From Rubrivivax sp. (GTDB lineage Bacteria > Pseudomonadota > Gammaproteobacteria > Burkholderiales > Burkholderiaceae_C): a stretch of DNA of 64,000 nucleotides. Location of the stretch: contig JADMJD010000018.1 of the NCBI GenBank assembly GCA_018780805.1, forward strand, positions 24,399 through 88,398, in the 5' to 3' direction. Both the position numbers and the translations under genes were made by a program. Positions within the stretch are counted from its first letter, which is position 1, and the number at the start of each line of letters is the position of its first letter. Under the pieces are notes generated by a model. It saw only the letters and a program-made list of their open reading frames with translations. It had not been told where the DNA came from and made no database searches. Below, in pieces: positions 1,868 through 40,369 of the stretch.

Positions 1868-3889
1868 TCAGCGCTTGAATTCGGCTTGCAGCAGGCGCTC
1901 CACCGTCCAGACCGGGGCATTCACCACCCGTTTGCTGGCACCCAGCTGGATCAGCGGCAATTCGCGTTTGGCCACCGTGTCCTGGATCGGCCCGATCTCG
2001 CGCAGGTTCACGCCGGCCCGCATCAGGGCCAGCGCGACCACGCGGATGTCTTCGTCGGGCACGGCGCTGCCGTACCAGAGCGCATTGGTTTCGGTGTCCG
2101 CCACACGCGCCGCGGGCCGCTCGACCGCATAACCCAGCTCGCGCAGCGCGTTGTCAACCTTGTCCTCGTCCAGGCCCTTGACAAAGGCTTCGATGCGCAC
2201 CGGCGAGGTGGTGGGCGCACCTCCAGTCGCACCACCAGTCGCACCACCGGTCGCACCACCGGCCGCCGCCAGCTTGTCGCCAGCGCCGCCCACACCCGCC
2301 GCGCCGCGCCGCTGCCGCAGCACCTGGTCGGCCTGCAGCGCCTGCTGCACCCGCAGGTCTTCGGGGGCGCTGGGCCACTCACCCACCCAGCCGTACTGCT
2401 CACGCAGCAGCTGGGTGGTCTGGCGCAGCCGGGTTTCGGCCAGGCGCGCATTTTCATTGGCGGCGTTTTTGGCGATGGTTTCCACCGTGCGTGCCTGCAC
2501 CGCTTCGTCGCGTGCGTCACGGGCCTGCCGGGTCTGCCACAGCGCCGCGCCCAGCATGCCCACGGCCACCACCAGGGCCGCCACCAGGCCTTGCTGGCTG
2601 CGGCGCAGTCGGGCCGCAGCAGCCTCGGCCTGCTGGCGGGCGTGCACCTCGGCCGCGCGGCGCTGGGCCTCCTGCCCAGCTTCGGCCTCGCGCAGCGCGG
2701 CCCGGCGGTCGCGTGCGGCGCGCACCACGTCGACCAGGCGGTCGTGGATGAGTTCGATGCGTGGCACGCCGCTGTCCTGCTCCACGCGCAGCAGCCGGTG
2801 TTCGTCGGTCAGCCGGGCCAGCTGGGCCTCGGTGACGAACCCCTGCTGCAAGGCCTCGGCGCGGGCGTAGCTGCCGCGTGTGCGGTCGCCCTGCAGCAAA
2901 TGGTCCTCGATGAAGCGGTGAACGCTGTCGGGCAGGCCGGCCAGGGCATCGCGGTAGAAGTCGGCCAGGATGTCGTCCCCCGCTTCGGCCAGCAGCGTGG
3001 CGTCGATGCGTCCGCCGGCCGGCAGGCGGCGCACCAGCTGCGCGCCGCACAGGCTCAGCAAGGCCGGCTCGATGGTTTGCGTGCCCGCGGCCTGGCCCAG
3101 CGCACCGACAAAGTCCACCAACTGCGCGGCCACCCCCGGCGCCAGCACCGCGTCGCCGGCCCGCTGCACGGCGCCGACGGCCTGTTCGCGGCTCATCGGC
3201 ACCAGGCGCAGGTCGTGCCGCAGCAACGACGGCACCTGGGCTTGCCAGGCGCGCACCTCGGGCAGGAAGTCTTCGCGAAAGGACAGCAGCATGCGGTAGC
3301 GCTGGGTGATCAGGTCCAGCGCCTCGCGGCCGCGCCGGCTGTCGGCCACAGCGCGTTCCAGCCGGTTTTCGGCCAGGTCGGCCAGGGCCTCGAACACCGC
3401 ACCCACCCTTGTTGCGTCACCACCGGTGCGCGAAAACAGCTCCTCGAACTGGTCGAACACCAGCACCGGCGTCCAGGGGCGGTTGTCGGCGCTCCACAGC
3501 TCGAAGTCCTTGCGGTGCAGCCAGTGCCACAGGCTCTCGCCAGGGTCGCGCGTGGGCGCCTCAAGGCCTGAGGCGGCGATTTCCTCGGCCAGGCGGCGTG
3601 CGATCTGCTCCACCGGGTCGGCCGCGCCGCTGGAAAAATCCAGCCGCAGGTAGACCGGCAGGTGGCAGGCCGCGCGCAGCCGCGGGAACAGCCCGGCCTT
3701 CAGCAAGGAACTCTTGCCCAGCCCCGAGCGGCCGTACAAGACGGTGAGCGGCGCCATGCGGATCAGCCGCGCCAGCGCCTCGGCTTCGGCGTCCCGGCCC
3801 TGGAAAAAAGCCTGCGCCGATTCGTCGTAAGCCGCCAGGCCGGGCCAGGGTTGGCTGGCGCTGAGCTGGGCGCTGAGGCTGGCGGCCAT
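1868..3889 (-). CDS. nSTAND-family P-loop ATPase with winged helix, single TM segment and extra C-terminal domain
   Basis: PGLAAYDESAQAFFQGRDAEAEAL...LYGRSGLGKSSLLKAGLFPRL (Walker A), VLVFDQFEELF (Walker B), IELIHDRLVDVV, TM GLVAALVVAVGMLGAALW, GATGGATGGATGGA linker, C-terminal ALWYGSAVPDEDIRVVALALMRAG. Confidence 0.85.
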   Translation of the reverse strand: MAASLSAQLSASQPWPGLAAYDESAQAFFQGRDAEAEALARLIRMAPLTVLYGRSGLGKSSLLKAGLFPRLRAACHLPVYLRLDFSSGAADPVEQIARRLAEEIAASGLEAPTRDPGESLWHWLHRKDFELWSADNRPWTPVLVFDQFEELFSRTGGDATRVGAVFEALADLAENRLERAVADSRRGREALDLITQRYRMLLSFREDFLPEVRAWQAQVPSLLRHDLRLVPMSREQAVGAVQRAGDAVLAPGVAAQLVDFVGALGQAAGTQTIEPALLSLCGAQLVRRLPAGGRIDATLLAEAGDDILADFYRDALAGLPDSVHRFIEDHLLQGDRTRGSYARAEALQQGFVTEAQLARLTDEHRLLRVEQDSGVPRIELIHDRLVDVVRAARDRRAALREAEAGQEAQRRAAEVHARQQAEAAAARLRRSQQGLVAALVVAVGMLGAALWQTRQARDARDEAVQARTVETIAKNAANENARLAETRLRQTTQLLREQYGWVGEWPSAPEDLRVQQALQADQVLRQRRGAAGVGGAGDKLAAAGGATGGATGGATGGAPTTSPVRIEAFVKGLDEDKVDNALRELGYAVERPAARVADTETNALWYGSAVPDEDIRVVALALMRAGVNLREIGPIQDTVAKRELPLIQLGASKRVVNAPVWTVERLLQAEFKR

Positions 3890-3894
3890 GGGGG

Positions 3895-5283
3895 TCAGCC
3901 GGCCGCGCGCCGGGCGTCGCGCAGCAGCGCCACCAGGCGGCCGCGTGTAGCCTCGTCGGGCACGCCGCCGGGTGCAAAGCCGAAGTCGGTGTGCGCCCAG
4001 GCGCGCACGGGCTCGGCGTCGTACCGGGCCGGGGCGAAACTGTCGTCCACCACCAGCGGCACCACGAAGGCCCGGTTCATGTCCATGGCACGGTCGTTGG
4101 CGGCACGCCACTCGCGGAACACAAAACCTTCTTCGCGCCCGTTGGTCGCGGCCGACAGCAGCGGCAGGAAGTAGCGGCAGCCCTGGATGCCGTCCAGGAT
4201 CTGGTGGCGGAAATTGTCGCCCGGCTCGATGGCCTGGCGGTCGAGCCAGATCTCGTGTTCGGCCACGCCAATGGCGCGCAGCGCGGCACACAGCGCATCG
4301 GCGCGCTGCAGATCGGCCCCGCGTGAGTAGCTGATGAAAAACACCGCGCGGCTGCGGCGCTCGTCGGCCACCGCCGGCACCGCGGCGCCGGCGGCAGGCT
4401 GCTCGGCCAGCCAGCGGCGGTGCAGCTCGGCGATGAAATCCGCCGGCGAAGACTCCACCAGCAGCTCGGTTTCACTGCTGTAGCTGCGCAGGAAACCCAC
4501 CAGGCCGTCGGGGGACCCCGGTGCACCTGGGGCTTCCACCAGCCATTCGCGTTTTTGCTTTTCGGCCAGACGGCCGGTGTTGGTGACGCGCAGAAAGAAC
4601 CGGCCCAGCCAGTCCGGGAAGGCGCAGCCCAGCAGCAGCAGGCTGCGTTCCTGCAGCGCGCCGATGAAGTTCAGCGGCACCTGGCTGCCGCGGCTGATGA
4701 CGTTGTGCGCGTACTCCAGGATGTCTTCTTCGTGGATGGCGTACACCGGTGCCGCGCGTGACTTGCCGAACAGGTACATCAGCTGCACTTCGCCAGCGCG
4801 CGTGGCCCAGTCGGGCGCCAGGTCCTGCCATTCACTGGTGGGCAGCTTGGGCGCGTGCACCACCTCGCGCACCGCGGTGCGCTGGCGCAGGCAACGCGCC
4901 AGCAGGTCGTCGGCCGTGGTGCTGACGTAGAGCCGGAAGTCGGTGATCGCGACCAGCTGGCGCATCGCCGCAGGCAGCGCGGCTTCGGTGCGGGCGGTGA
5001 CGGTTTCGATGGCGTCGTGTACGTCGGTGTACAGGTCCTGCAGCGTGGCGCCTGCTTCGCGCCGCAGCCGGGTGACCACCTGCGACACCGGGAACACCTC
5101 GGGCAGCGCGGTCGGCTCGGCGGCCAGGCCATAGGTGGCCAGCAACTCGGCGGCCACCGCCTGCTGGAACGAGGGCTGGCCGGCGGTCGGGCCCAGAGAA
5201 CTCAGGAATTGCGACCCGACCACGGGCACCACATACCCTTGTCGGATCTGGCGCAGCAGGCGTTTCCAGTCGGCTTCGTTCAT
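3895..5283 (-). CDS. SIR2-like (N-terminal) / TIR (C-terminal) fusion protein
   Basis: 462 aa; N-term GYVVPVVGSQFLS, YVSTTADDLLARCL, IHEEDILEYAHNVIS, LLLLGCAFPDWLGRFFLR (SIR2_2-like); C-term RAVFFISYSRGADLQRADALCAAL...IWLDRQAI...GFVFREWRAA (TIR); 5 bp upstream of the ATPase ORF. Confidence 0.8.
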   Translation of the reverse strand: MNEADWKRLLRQIRQGYVVPVVGSQFLSSLGPTAGQPSFQQAVAAELLATYGLAAEPTALPEVFPVSQVVTRLRREAGATLQDLYTDVHDAIETVTARTEAALPAAMRQLVAITDFRLYVSTTADDLLARCLRQRTAVREVVHAPKLPTSEWQDLAPDWATRAGEVQLMYLFGKSRAAPVYAIHEEDILEYAHNVISRGSQVPLNFIGALQERSLLLLGCAFPDWLGRFFLRVTNTGRLAEKQKREWLVEAPGAPGSPDGLVGFLRSYSSETELLVESSPADFIAELHRRWLAEQPAAGAAVPAVADERRSRAVFFISYSRGADLQRADALCAALRAIGVAEHEIWLDRQAIEPGDNFRHQILDGIQGCRYFLPLLSAATNGREEGFVFREWRAANDRAMDMNRAFVVPLVVDDSFAPARYDAEPVRAWAHTDFGFAPGGVPDEATRGRLVALLRDARRAAG

Positions 5284-37834: not shown

Positions 37835-37866
37835 GGGCCGCTGAAGCGGCCCTTTTTGTTTTTTTG
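37835..37866 (+). terminator. rho-independent terminator downstream of fba
   Basis: GGGCCGC-TGAA-GCGGCCC perfect 7-bp stem followed by TTTTTGTTTTTTT. Confidence 0.9.
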
Positions 37867-37914
37867 TGCGCGACACTTGCGGCTGGATTTCCAGCGGCCA
37901 CCCGGACCCTTGCC

Positions 37915-38778
37915 ATGACCACCACGACCACGCTCTTCGAGACCAGCCTGCACTCCCTGCCCCTGCTGCACCGCGGCAAGGTGCGCGACAACTACGCGGT
38001 CGGCGACGACCGCATCCTGATGATCGCGACCGACCGCATCTCGGCCTTCGACGTGGTGATGGCCGACCCGATCCCGGGCAAAGGCGAGATCCTGACCCAG
38101 ATGGCCTTGTTCTGGTTCAAGAAGCTGGAGCACATCATGCCCAACCACCTGACCGGCGAGGCCCCGGAATCGGTGGTAGCCCCGGACGAACTGGACCAGG
38201 TGCGAGGCCGTGCGATGCTGGTCAAACGCCTGAAACCCATTCCCATCGAAGCCGTGGTGCGCGGTTATCTGGCCGGGTCGGGCTGGAAGGAATACCAAGC
38301 CACCGGCACGGTGTGTGGTGTGGCCCTGCCGCCGGGTCTGGAGAAGGGCAGCCGTTTGCCCGAGCCGATCTTCACACCGGCCACCAAGGCCGAGGCCGGC
38401 GAACACGACGAGAACATCGACTTCGCGACGATGGAGCGGACCATTGGCAGCGACTTGGCGCACCAGGTACGCAGCGCCGCGTTGCAACTCTATGCAGCTG
38501 CGTCTGAATACGCGCTGACACGTGGTGTCATCGTGGCCGATACAAAATTCGAGTTCGGTTTGGATTTGTCAGGTCAACTGACGGTGATGGACGAAATGCT
38601 GACGCCGGATTCTTCTAGGTTGTGGGTTGCAATTGAAAAATATAAACCTTTGGACAAACAGCCTCTACGTGACTGGTTGACGAATAATTCACAGCCCGGT
38701 CGAGTTGTTAGATTGCCTCTGACTGTTGTGGAATCTATCGAAGTCACATATAAATCAGCTCTTCTTAGAATAGTTTGA
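37915..38778 (+). CDS. purC: phosphoribosylaminoimidazolesuccinocarboxamide synthase (C-terminus encoded in AT-rich DNA)
   Basis: [67 protein letters not shown]. Confidence 0.95.
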
Positions 38779-38788
38779 TGAAGCAACC

Positions 38789-39853
38789 ATGAGTGACTAC
38801 GCCACGGCAAGCTCAGCTTTGATGGACGCGTTACGTAAAGCTCAAATGGGTGATGTTACAGGCGCAGAGCAAACTGTTCAATTTGTTCGCGCCACTTGGA
38901 TTGTCGCGGATTCGCCAGAGTTAATGGTTGATCTGATGATTGTCGAGGGTATCTGTGGATTTTATTCCGATAGAGTTGATTATGCAAAGGATCGCATAGC
39001 TCGGGCGCTTGCTGTAGCAAAGGTTTCTCGGCGTAGTGAATGTATTTACGCCGCATCAGCTTGGCTTGCGTATCTAAAGTTGGTCGACGGGGACATGCGT
39101 TTGGCCGCTGATGTTGTAATTGCGGGCTGCAGTAGTCGTCCACCGAATGTCTCGCCTTTGGCGGAGTTCCGTTGTTCAAGCATATTGGCTGTCTTGTTTG
39201 AGTATTTTGGCGCCTCGACTGTGGCTGCGGGTTGGTTTGCGTATACGAGAGCCGTTGCTCTAGAGACCAACCTGCCAGGTACCTTTAGTTCGGTTATATA
39301 CAATATGGCGGTTGCTCGAATCAATGCTTCGCAGTTGGCTAAAATTCGTAGTGAAAAATTCGAAGATAAGATCGAATTAAACCTCTTGCTCGCTAAATCG
39401 GCGTCAAATTACGATGATATAAGAAACATCCATGTCCTTGATCCTTTGCATTATTTGATTCAGGCACAGGCATTGTACTTGTGTGGTCAGGTTTCGTTGG
39501 CAATCGAGACTGTTACTAAATTCTTGACTAAGTCAAGCGGAGTTCTGGATCGATTTAAAATCCGAGGGGAGCTTGATCTTTTGAGGTATCAAATATCGGG
39601 CCAAATATGTCCTAATATAAACAATATCAGAAGACTTCAAGTTTTATCTTCGATTTTTCAGTCTGATGCTGATCAAGCAATTGCAAAGCATGTGCTTGCT
39701 GAAGGTTTCAGTATTTTGGGTGAAAATGCTGTTGCATCTCAATTGAGATTTGAAGTTGATTGCCACTTGCATCTCCATCAGGACATGTGTAAATCGATAT
39801 TGAGTGATTTTGAGGGCGCAGGATTGTTTTTTTTTCCAAATATCGACAAATAA
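38789..39853 (+). CDS. hypothetical alpha-helical repeat (TPR-like) protein in AT-rich segment
   Basis: 354-aa ORF with base composition unlike the window; helical repeats; not an enzyme family I recognise. Confidence 0.7.
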   Translation: MSDYATASSALMDALRKAQMGDVTGAEQTVQFVRATWIVADSPELMVDLMIVEGICGFYSDRVDYAKDRIARALAVAKVSRRSECIYAASAWLAYLKLVDGDMRLAADVVIAGCSSRPPNVSPLAEFRCSSILAVLFEYFGASTVAAGWFAYTRAVALETNLPGTFSSVIYNMAVARINASQLAKIRSEKFEDKIELNLLLAKSASNYDDIRNIHVLDPLHYLIQAQALYLCGQVSLAIETVTKFLTKSSGVLDRFKIRGELDLLRYQISGQICPNINNIRRLQVLSSIFQSDADQAIAKHVLAEGFSILGENAVASQLRFEVDCHLHLHQDMCKSILSDFEGAGLFFFPNIDK

Positions 39854-39862
39854 ACAAATATT

Positions 39863-40369
39863 ATGATGGACAAGTTTTGTGATTTTCCGGTGATTTCGAT
39901 TGTAATGGGTTCAGTTTCTGATTGGCCTGTCCTGAATTTTTCGTGCTCTTTCTTGACGAAATTCGCAATCCCCCACGAAACCGCTGTCCTCTCCGCCCAT
40001 CGCATGCCCGACGACATGTTTCGCTTCGCCGAGGCGGCGGCCGGGCGGGGGATCCGGGCCATCATTGCGGGCGCGGGGGGGGCGGCCCATTTGCCGGGGA
40101 TGATTGCGGCCAAGACCACGGTGCCGGTGCTCGGTGTACCCATCCCCAGCAAACACCTGCAGGGCGTAGATTCGCTGTATTCGATCGTGCAGATGCCCAA
40201 GGGCATTCCAGTGGCTACTTTTGCCATCGGTGAAGCGGGCGCCGTGAACGCCGCCTTGTTTGCCGTGGCGATGCTGGCGCACGACGACCCCGCCCTGCAC
40301 CAGAAACTGCTGGACTACCGCCAAGAGCAGACCGAGGCCGCCCGTGCCATGAACCAGGACCTGACGTGA
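39863..40369 (+). CDS. purE: 5-(carboxyamino)imidazole ribonucleotide mutase (N-terminus encoded in AT-rich DNA)
   Basis: VMGSVSDWPV; VLSAHRMPDDMF; AIIAGAGGAAHLPGMIAAKTTVPVLGVPIPS. Confidence 0.95.
   Translation: MMDKFCDFPVISIVMGSVSDWPVLNFSCSFLTKFAIPHETAVLSAHRMPDDMFRFAEAAAGRGIRAIIAGAGGAAHLPGMIAAKTTVPVLGVPIPSKHLQGVDSLYSIVQMPKGIPVATFAIGEAGAVNAALFAVAMLAHDDPALHQKLLDYRQEQTEAARAMNQDLT

Follow-up and report, generated by a model that had tools for sequence, protein, structure and literature searches.

In a 64,000-nt stretch of the Rubrivivax sp. assembly GCA_018780805.1 (contig JADMJD010000018.1, positions 24,399 to 88,398; hereafter the window), two neighboring genes on the minus strand form a conserved two-gene module, whose adjacency across genomes is far above chance. 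The first gene (3895..5283, ATG at 5283 and stop at 3895) encodes a 462-aa protein, P0001, in which a SIR2-like domain is fused to a TIR domain. The second (1868..3889, ATG at 3889 and stop at 1868) encodes P0002, a 673-aa nSTAND1 ATPase with a predicted transmembrane (TM) helix and a C-terminal domain. A preliminary description of the window had called both open reading frames (ORFs) at these coordinates and on this strand, with 5 bp between the SIR2–TIR stop and the STAND start, and we confirmed this arrangement. An alternative GTG-started ORF in the STAND frame (1868-4291) overlaps the SIR2–TIR gene; the ATG at 3889 was preferred because it fits the STAND start positions in the first homologs examined, which range from 4 nt upstream to ~20 nt downstream of the point where the SIR2–TIR gene stops. 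Comparison of homologous sequences shows the pairing itself, the loss of motifs in one domain and their retention in others, and a constant core with an exchanged C-terminus. Building on this, we consider it somewhat probable that these two genes make up a membrane-anchored STAND module of immune (biological-conflict) type, in which sensing at the envelope would be relayed to a TIR NADase held on a pseudo-SIR2 scaffold. This judgement is meant for the chain of steps in broad terms, and the alternatives discussed below overlap with parts of it.

The homolog search was seeded with SIR2–TIR sequences only. A contig scan with the single P0001 sequence gave no matches and an alignment-based scan gave 80 loci; the sample analyzed consists of the 80 best-matching contigs of named genomes and two further genomes. 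It holds 83 SIR2–TIR genes, 80 of which are immediately followed by an nSTAND1 gene in the same orientation. Two of the three unpaired genes lie at a contig edge and only one (locus L106) is a true orphan, so that 80 of 81 testable loci are paired. Among 301 genomes of the family, nine scored above the threshold for the SIR2–TIR protein and 10 above that for the STAND protein. The apparent exception, a genome (G683) with a STAND gene and seemingly no partner, was rejected as such: a diverged SIR2–TIR gene (locus L213, E=5e-47) overlaps its STAND gene, and all 10 family genomes with either strong match (10/10) therefore carry adjacent pairs. Applied to the counts of genomes over threshold (9 and 10), Fisher's test gave 2e-16, and a mirror-tree comparison of the SIR2–TIR protein with the STAND core gave r=0.957, a value to which shared organismal descent contributes and which was reached in 0 of 1000 permutations (best 0.15). 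The preliminary description had staked its proposal on co-conservation of the two proteins and on a patchy distribution rather than a vertically inherited core locus, and the pair survives on both counts. Within the genus, 5 of 31 genomes contain full-length homologs, as do 9 of 301 of the family and 3 of 399 in a sample of the phylum, whereas the family of the flanking rep helicase is found in 31/31 genus genomes. Named matches come from at least five phyla (Pseudomonadota, Verrucomicrobiota, Acidobacteriota, Nitrospirota and Myxococcota), which are interleaved on the tree, although lone odd phylum placements may be binning errors, since many of the genomes are metagenome-assembled genomes (MAGs).

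The N-terminal half of P0001 (~residues 1-295; 4399..5283, minus strand) adopts a SIR2 fold with a degenerate active site. The SIR2_2 match of P0001 alone (E=0.019) lies under the Pfam cut-off; eight of eight aligned family members match SIR2_2 (best E=1.9e-13), and profile-profile comparison by hhalign with canonical SIR2_2 proteins of relatives gave E=1.9e-8. An AlphaFold2 model of P0001 (72 sequences in the alignment; predicted local distance difference test [pLDDT] score 89.9) was compared with the PDB using Foldseek, and because the nearest solved structures were ThsA (the top match), KomC, DSR2 and Avs5, with E-values down to 1e-11, we regard the fold as a true SIR2 fold. When the SIR2-like domain was compared as a profile with PDB sequences, only chance matches came up, and the sirtuin motifs were therefore mapped by hhalign against the canonical SIR2_2 proteins of relatives. 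This places T123 (codon 4915..4917) at the position of the sirtuin catalytic Asn (TTNxD) and F172 (codon 4768..4770) at that of the catalytic His (HG motif). Across 84 sequences, position 123 is Thr in 79, Ser in four and Cys in one, and never Asn; position 172 is Leu in 40, Phe in 38 and Met in six, with neither His nor Asn in any. TTNxD has thus become TTTxD and HG has become [FLM]G, and the GAGxS motif is gone from the family, its commonest replacement being GPELL. Compared with the active defense sirtuins ThsA, DSR2 and Avs5, the family keeps the SIR2 fold and lacks the catalytic Asn, GAGxS and HG or NG. As all three sirtuin motifs are lost family-wide, NADase activity of the SIR2-like domain is very unlikely. 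The clear SIR2 fold would allow a dual NADase, in which SIR2 and TIR both destroy NAD+ once the STAND partner is triggered, and the loss of the His is indecisive taken alone, given that Avs5 keeps its activity when HG is replaced by NG (PMC12931631). However, GAGxS and TTNxD have been called characteristic of all known sirtuins, the N110A mutation abolishes immunity by Avs5 (PMC12931631), and in our family this required Asn is replaced in 84/84 sequences, as is the His, while GAGxS is lost, which makes a dual NADase very improbable.

The TIR domain (~residues 312-425; 4009..4350, minus strand) presents the opposite picture. Its TIR_2 match (E=2.5e-16) is well over the Pfam cut-off, and hhalign (E=3.7e-22) aligns E391 (codon 4111..4113) to the catalytic Glu of canonical TIRs, within the [WF]xxxE motif. 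This residue is Glu in 84/84 sequences, so that P0001 combines the TIR fold with the catalytic Glu of TIR NADases. With the SIR2 motifs lost throughout the family, catalysis can plausibly be ascribed to the TIR alone, and the SIR2–TIR protein can probably destroy NAD through this half. The earlier proposal that P0001 is an NAD effector is accordingly plausible for its TIR part and very unlikely for SIR2 catalysis. The degenerate domain could still have a role as a receptor for a nucleotide or ADP-ribose derivative, comparable to SLOG in ThsA, which would gate the TIR and leave the STAND protein mainly as a scaffold. Degenerate Rossmannoid domains can retain ligand binding, and both the Asp of TTxxD and an E186-D187-x-x-E190 cluster are conserved. 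Yet neither GAGxS nor TTNxD, the motifs with which sirtuins bind NAD, is intact, and no obvious signal-making enzyme gene recurs beside the pair in most loci; we hold this reading to be unlikely.

P0002 belongs to the nSTAND1 clade: the nSTAND1 profile scores 99.9 bits (E=3.2e-28) against a cut-off of 27.1, and the profile match, invariant columns and Foldseek together support an NTPase core at residues 14-418 (2636..3850, minus strand). The core contains a Walker A motif (GRSGLGKSS, codons ~3733-3707) and a Walker B motif (LVFDQFEEL), of which G58, K59, D146, E149 and E150 are invariant in 63 sequences, along with invariant R205 and H382-D383. The AlphaFold2 model of P0002 (pLDDT 83.3) matches, among AAA+ proteins, SSO1545, the plant TIR-NLR WRR4A TNL, Apaf-1, Avs5 and CED-4. 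Structure modeling, which had been suggested as a check, thus yields a SIR2 fold for P0001 and a STAND-type ATPase for P0002. The core is followed by a predicted TM helix (residues 433-451; 2537..2593, minus strand; Kyte-Doolittle mean 1.96), whose STAND side is predicted inside from a family-wide positive-inside bias, and by a Kyte-Doolittle cut-off a hydrophobic helix after the STAND core, near residues 405-490, is present in 73 of 76 proteins. The domain matches, the models and the hydrophobic segment together support the proposed layout, with one chain that joins a SIR2-like to a TIR domain and a second, membrane-anchored chain that carries the STAND module.

While the STAND core is constant, the segment past the TM helix varies between members. 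We found C-termini with WD40, TPR, both of these, Trypsin_2, a Tll0287-like heme domain, pYEATS, LytR_C or no Pfam match. As WD40 and TPR C-termini are not separable by BLAST clustering, which merges them, the number of sensor swaps counted over the tree is an approximate minimum. In the window, the putative interchangeable sensor (~residues 563-673; 1871..2203, minus strand) has a predicted strand-helix-strand-strand-helix-strand core, gave no Pfam match, and is common to only four relatives (loci L012, L052, L054 and L061). A LytR_C identity, suggested by the predicted fold, was rejected (hhalign probability 0.3%). One diverged member (L213) has no C-terminal module at all; by inspection of its surroundings (L213:6195-9129), this sensor-less pair runs opposite to two flanking genes, read as ruvA and ruvB, between which it was apparently inserted. 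The interchangeable module and its likely outside location had both been missed in the preliminary description.

The location of this module is the least certain step of the mechanism that we favor. Lys and Arg residues are more frequent in the 20 residues before the helix than in the 20 after it (mean 6.4 versus 3.7), with an excess before the helix in 68 of 76 proteins and the reverse in three, and from this the C-terminus is predicted to lie outside the cytoplasm. In addition, one STAND C-terminus (L078:3089-3733) consists of a Tll0287-like domain with a CxxCH heme motif (CVKCH), followed by a second membrane helix. As c-type heme is covalently attached outside the cytoplasm, this motif argues for an outside C-terminus in at least some members, and this particular C-terminus is possibly a redox or heme-based sensor on an immune-type switch. 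On the other hand, TPR and WD40 domains are usually cytoplasmic and typically bind ligands in the cytosol, which fits poorly with an outside location. They would be more at home in a cytoplasmic, Avs-like sensor, in which the helix only tethers the protein to the membrane or stays uninserted, phage proteins are recognized in the cytosol by the C-terminal repeats, and the TIR is the effector. The positive-inside bias (68 versus 3) and the CVKCH domain speak against such an arrangement, which we think rather unlikely, if somewhat less so than ligand sensing by the SIR2-fold domain.

Under the envelope-sensing mechanism, the C-terminal module would sense an envelope signal, such as phage adsorption, phage injection or damage to the envelope itself, and the nSTAND1 protein would act as the constant switch, tethered by its single predicted membrane helix. 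ATP-dependent oligomerization of the STAND cores at the cytoplasmic face may then gather the SIR2–TIR partner, for which the catalytically dead SIR2-fold domain would provide a docking or assembly scaffold. The clustered TIRs would cleave NAD+, resulting in depletion or in a cyclic-ADP-ribose-type signal, and NAD+ cleavage would stop the growth of the attacked cell in an abortive response.

Whether such a switch would serve immunity can be weighed from the genomic context, where a number of observations weigh against our interpretation. The window locus lies outside any defense island, no full-length PADLOC model matches the pair, and homologs are absent from the phage records and viral contigs searched. 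The plasmid collection gave one match only, on a 2.6-Mb replicon, and together with the absence from the phage and viral sets this leaves carriage by mobile elements unsupported. The neighbors of the pair in the window are a divergent rep helicase gene on one side and, on the other, an MFS/PucC-like gene and a small ORF; an empty-site search upstream of rep in 12 genomes of the same genus showed that gene content varies there, and nothing more. This isolation between chromosomal genes and the lack of matches in phage and viral collections would suit a regulatory or developmental role instead, such as a switch for envelope stress or programmed cell death in environmental bacteria, and the heme-type and protease-type modules could report redox or envelope state. 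Three features nevertheless fit conflict systems better. The distribution is patchy. Several genomes hold more than one pair, including tandem pairs in locus L085 and copies with different sensors in Azohydromonas caseinilytica and Rubrivivax sp. A210. Finally, other immune-type genes accompany the pair in some loci. In one of them (L047:5483-9859), a TIR-nSTAND1-WD40 protein made as a single chain is encoded 142 bp upstream of the two-gene version, with the fused and split forms next to each other. In a Nitrospira MAG (L068:8000-19830), the cluster around the pair encodes a TPR-S-like protein, a patatin-type effector, a ThsB-like TIR and, judged by eye, a DUF4062-like protein. In Opitutaceae loci (L080, L084, L093, L096, L109 and others), the pair is joined by additional TIR-TPR genes, which have a TIR similar to the one fused to the SIR2-like domain. 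Co-occurrence with defense genes, which the preliminary description had suggested checking, is thus seen in these loci and not around the window pair, and a regulatory or developmental role in place of immunity seems to us improbable.

Of the known systems, Avs5 (AVAST type 5) resembles the pair in combining a SIR2 fold with a STAND ATPase, in NAD-targeting immunity and in assembly-driven activation (PMC12931631), and is a structural match to both P0001 and P0002. Avs5, however, is one chain with an active SIR2 (TTNxD), no TIR and no exchangeable module behind a membrane helix, whereas the window pair consists of two genes with a dead SIR2 and a TIR that is the likely enzyme. More generally, Avs/AVAST proteins carry effector, STAND and sensor in one chain, and here the effector is a separate gene in every paired locus. 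Thoeris also has SIR2 and TIR partners, one of which, ThsA, ranked first in the structural comparison of the SIR2–TIR protein, but the Thoeris TIR (ThsB) and SIR2 (ThsA, SIR2-SLOG) reside in separate proteins, the SIR2 is an active NADase and there is no STAND, while the window pair has a degenerate SIR2 fused to the TIR. The PADLOC ThsB match was weak (E=0.0038), and neither a SLOG match nor a ThsA partner was found. STAND and nSTAND1 conflict systems with separate effectors have already been described (PMC7159879, PMC8195603, PMC10907252). Those of Kaur et al. (PMC7159879, PMC8195603) share with the pair a multi-gene organization, variable C-termini, separate effectors and membrane association, and a SIR2–TIR partner is undescribed in the main-text passages searched of these two papers. 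The two-gene EACC1 membrane system differs in pairing the EACC1 TM protein with a caspase-type chain (PMC7159879), and no caspase match was found in P0001 or P0002. Single-chain TIR-nSTAND1-WD40 proteins have the TIR, nSTAND1 and WD40 modules in one polypeptide, in which a SIR2-like domain was not found. SIR2_2-TIR fusions as such already appear in a phylogeny, as TIR-labeled SIR2_2 proteins in a FAM118 sirtuin tree (PMC12700824); in the parts consulted this is an extended-data label only, which comes with neither a partner gene nor any account of motif loss or of a system. We found no published description of the pair in the literature searched, although an earlier mention is possible, for example in supplementary tables.

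Known bacterial STAND sensors such as Avs recognize intruders in the cytoplasm. We tentatively put forward, as a possibility with the odds somewhat against it, that the pair represents a family of transmembrane immune receptors, in which interchangeable modules survey the periplasm or cell surface and an ATP-driven STAND switch signals to a cytoplasmic TIR on a repurposed, dead sirtuin. If true, the family would be a functional parallel to receptors of animals and plants that detect signals outside the cell and relay them inward, unlike the cytosolic Avs sensors, and the question of whether bacterial innate immunity senses threats at the envelope would become directly testable. The SIR2-like domain would cleanly illustrate how a sirtuin fold can change from enzyme to scaffold within an NAD-targeting system. 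The lineages concerned (Rubrivivax, Nitrosomonas, Nitrospira and Opitutaceae) lie outside the usual model organisms of defense research.

Elsewhere in the window, a 354-aa ORF without a Pfam match (38789-39853, plus strand) lies between purC (37864-38778) and purE (39863-40369). The stretch that contains it has a GC content as low as ~0.49, compared with ~0.70 in the surroundings, and is possibly a recent insertion into a purine-biosynthesis operon.

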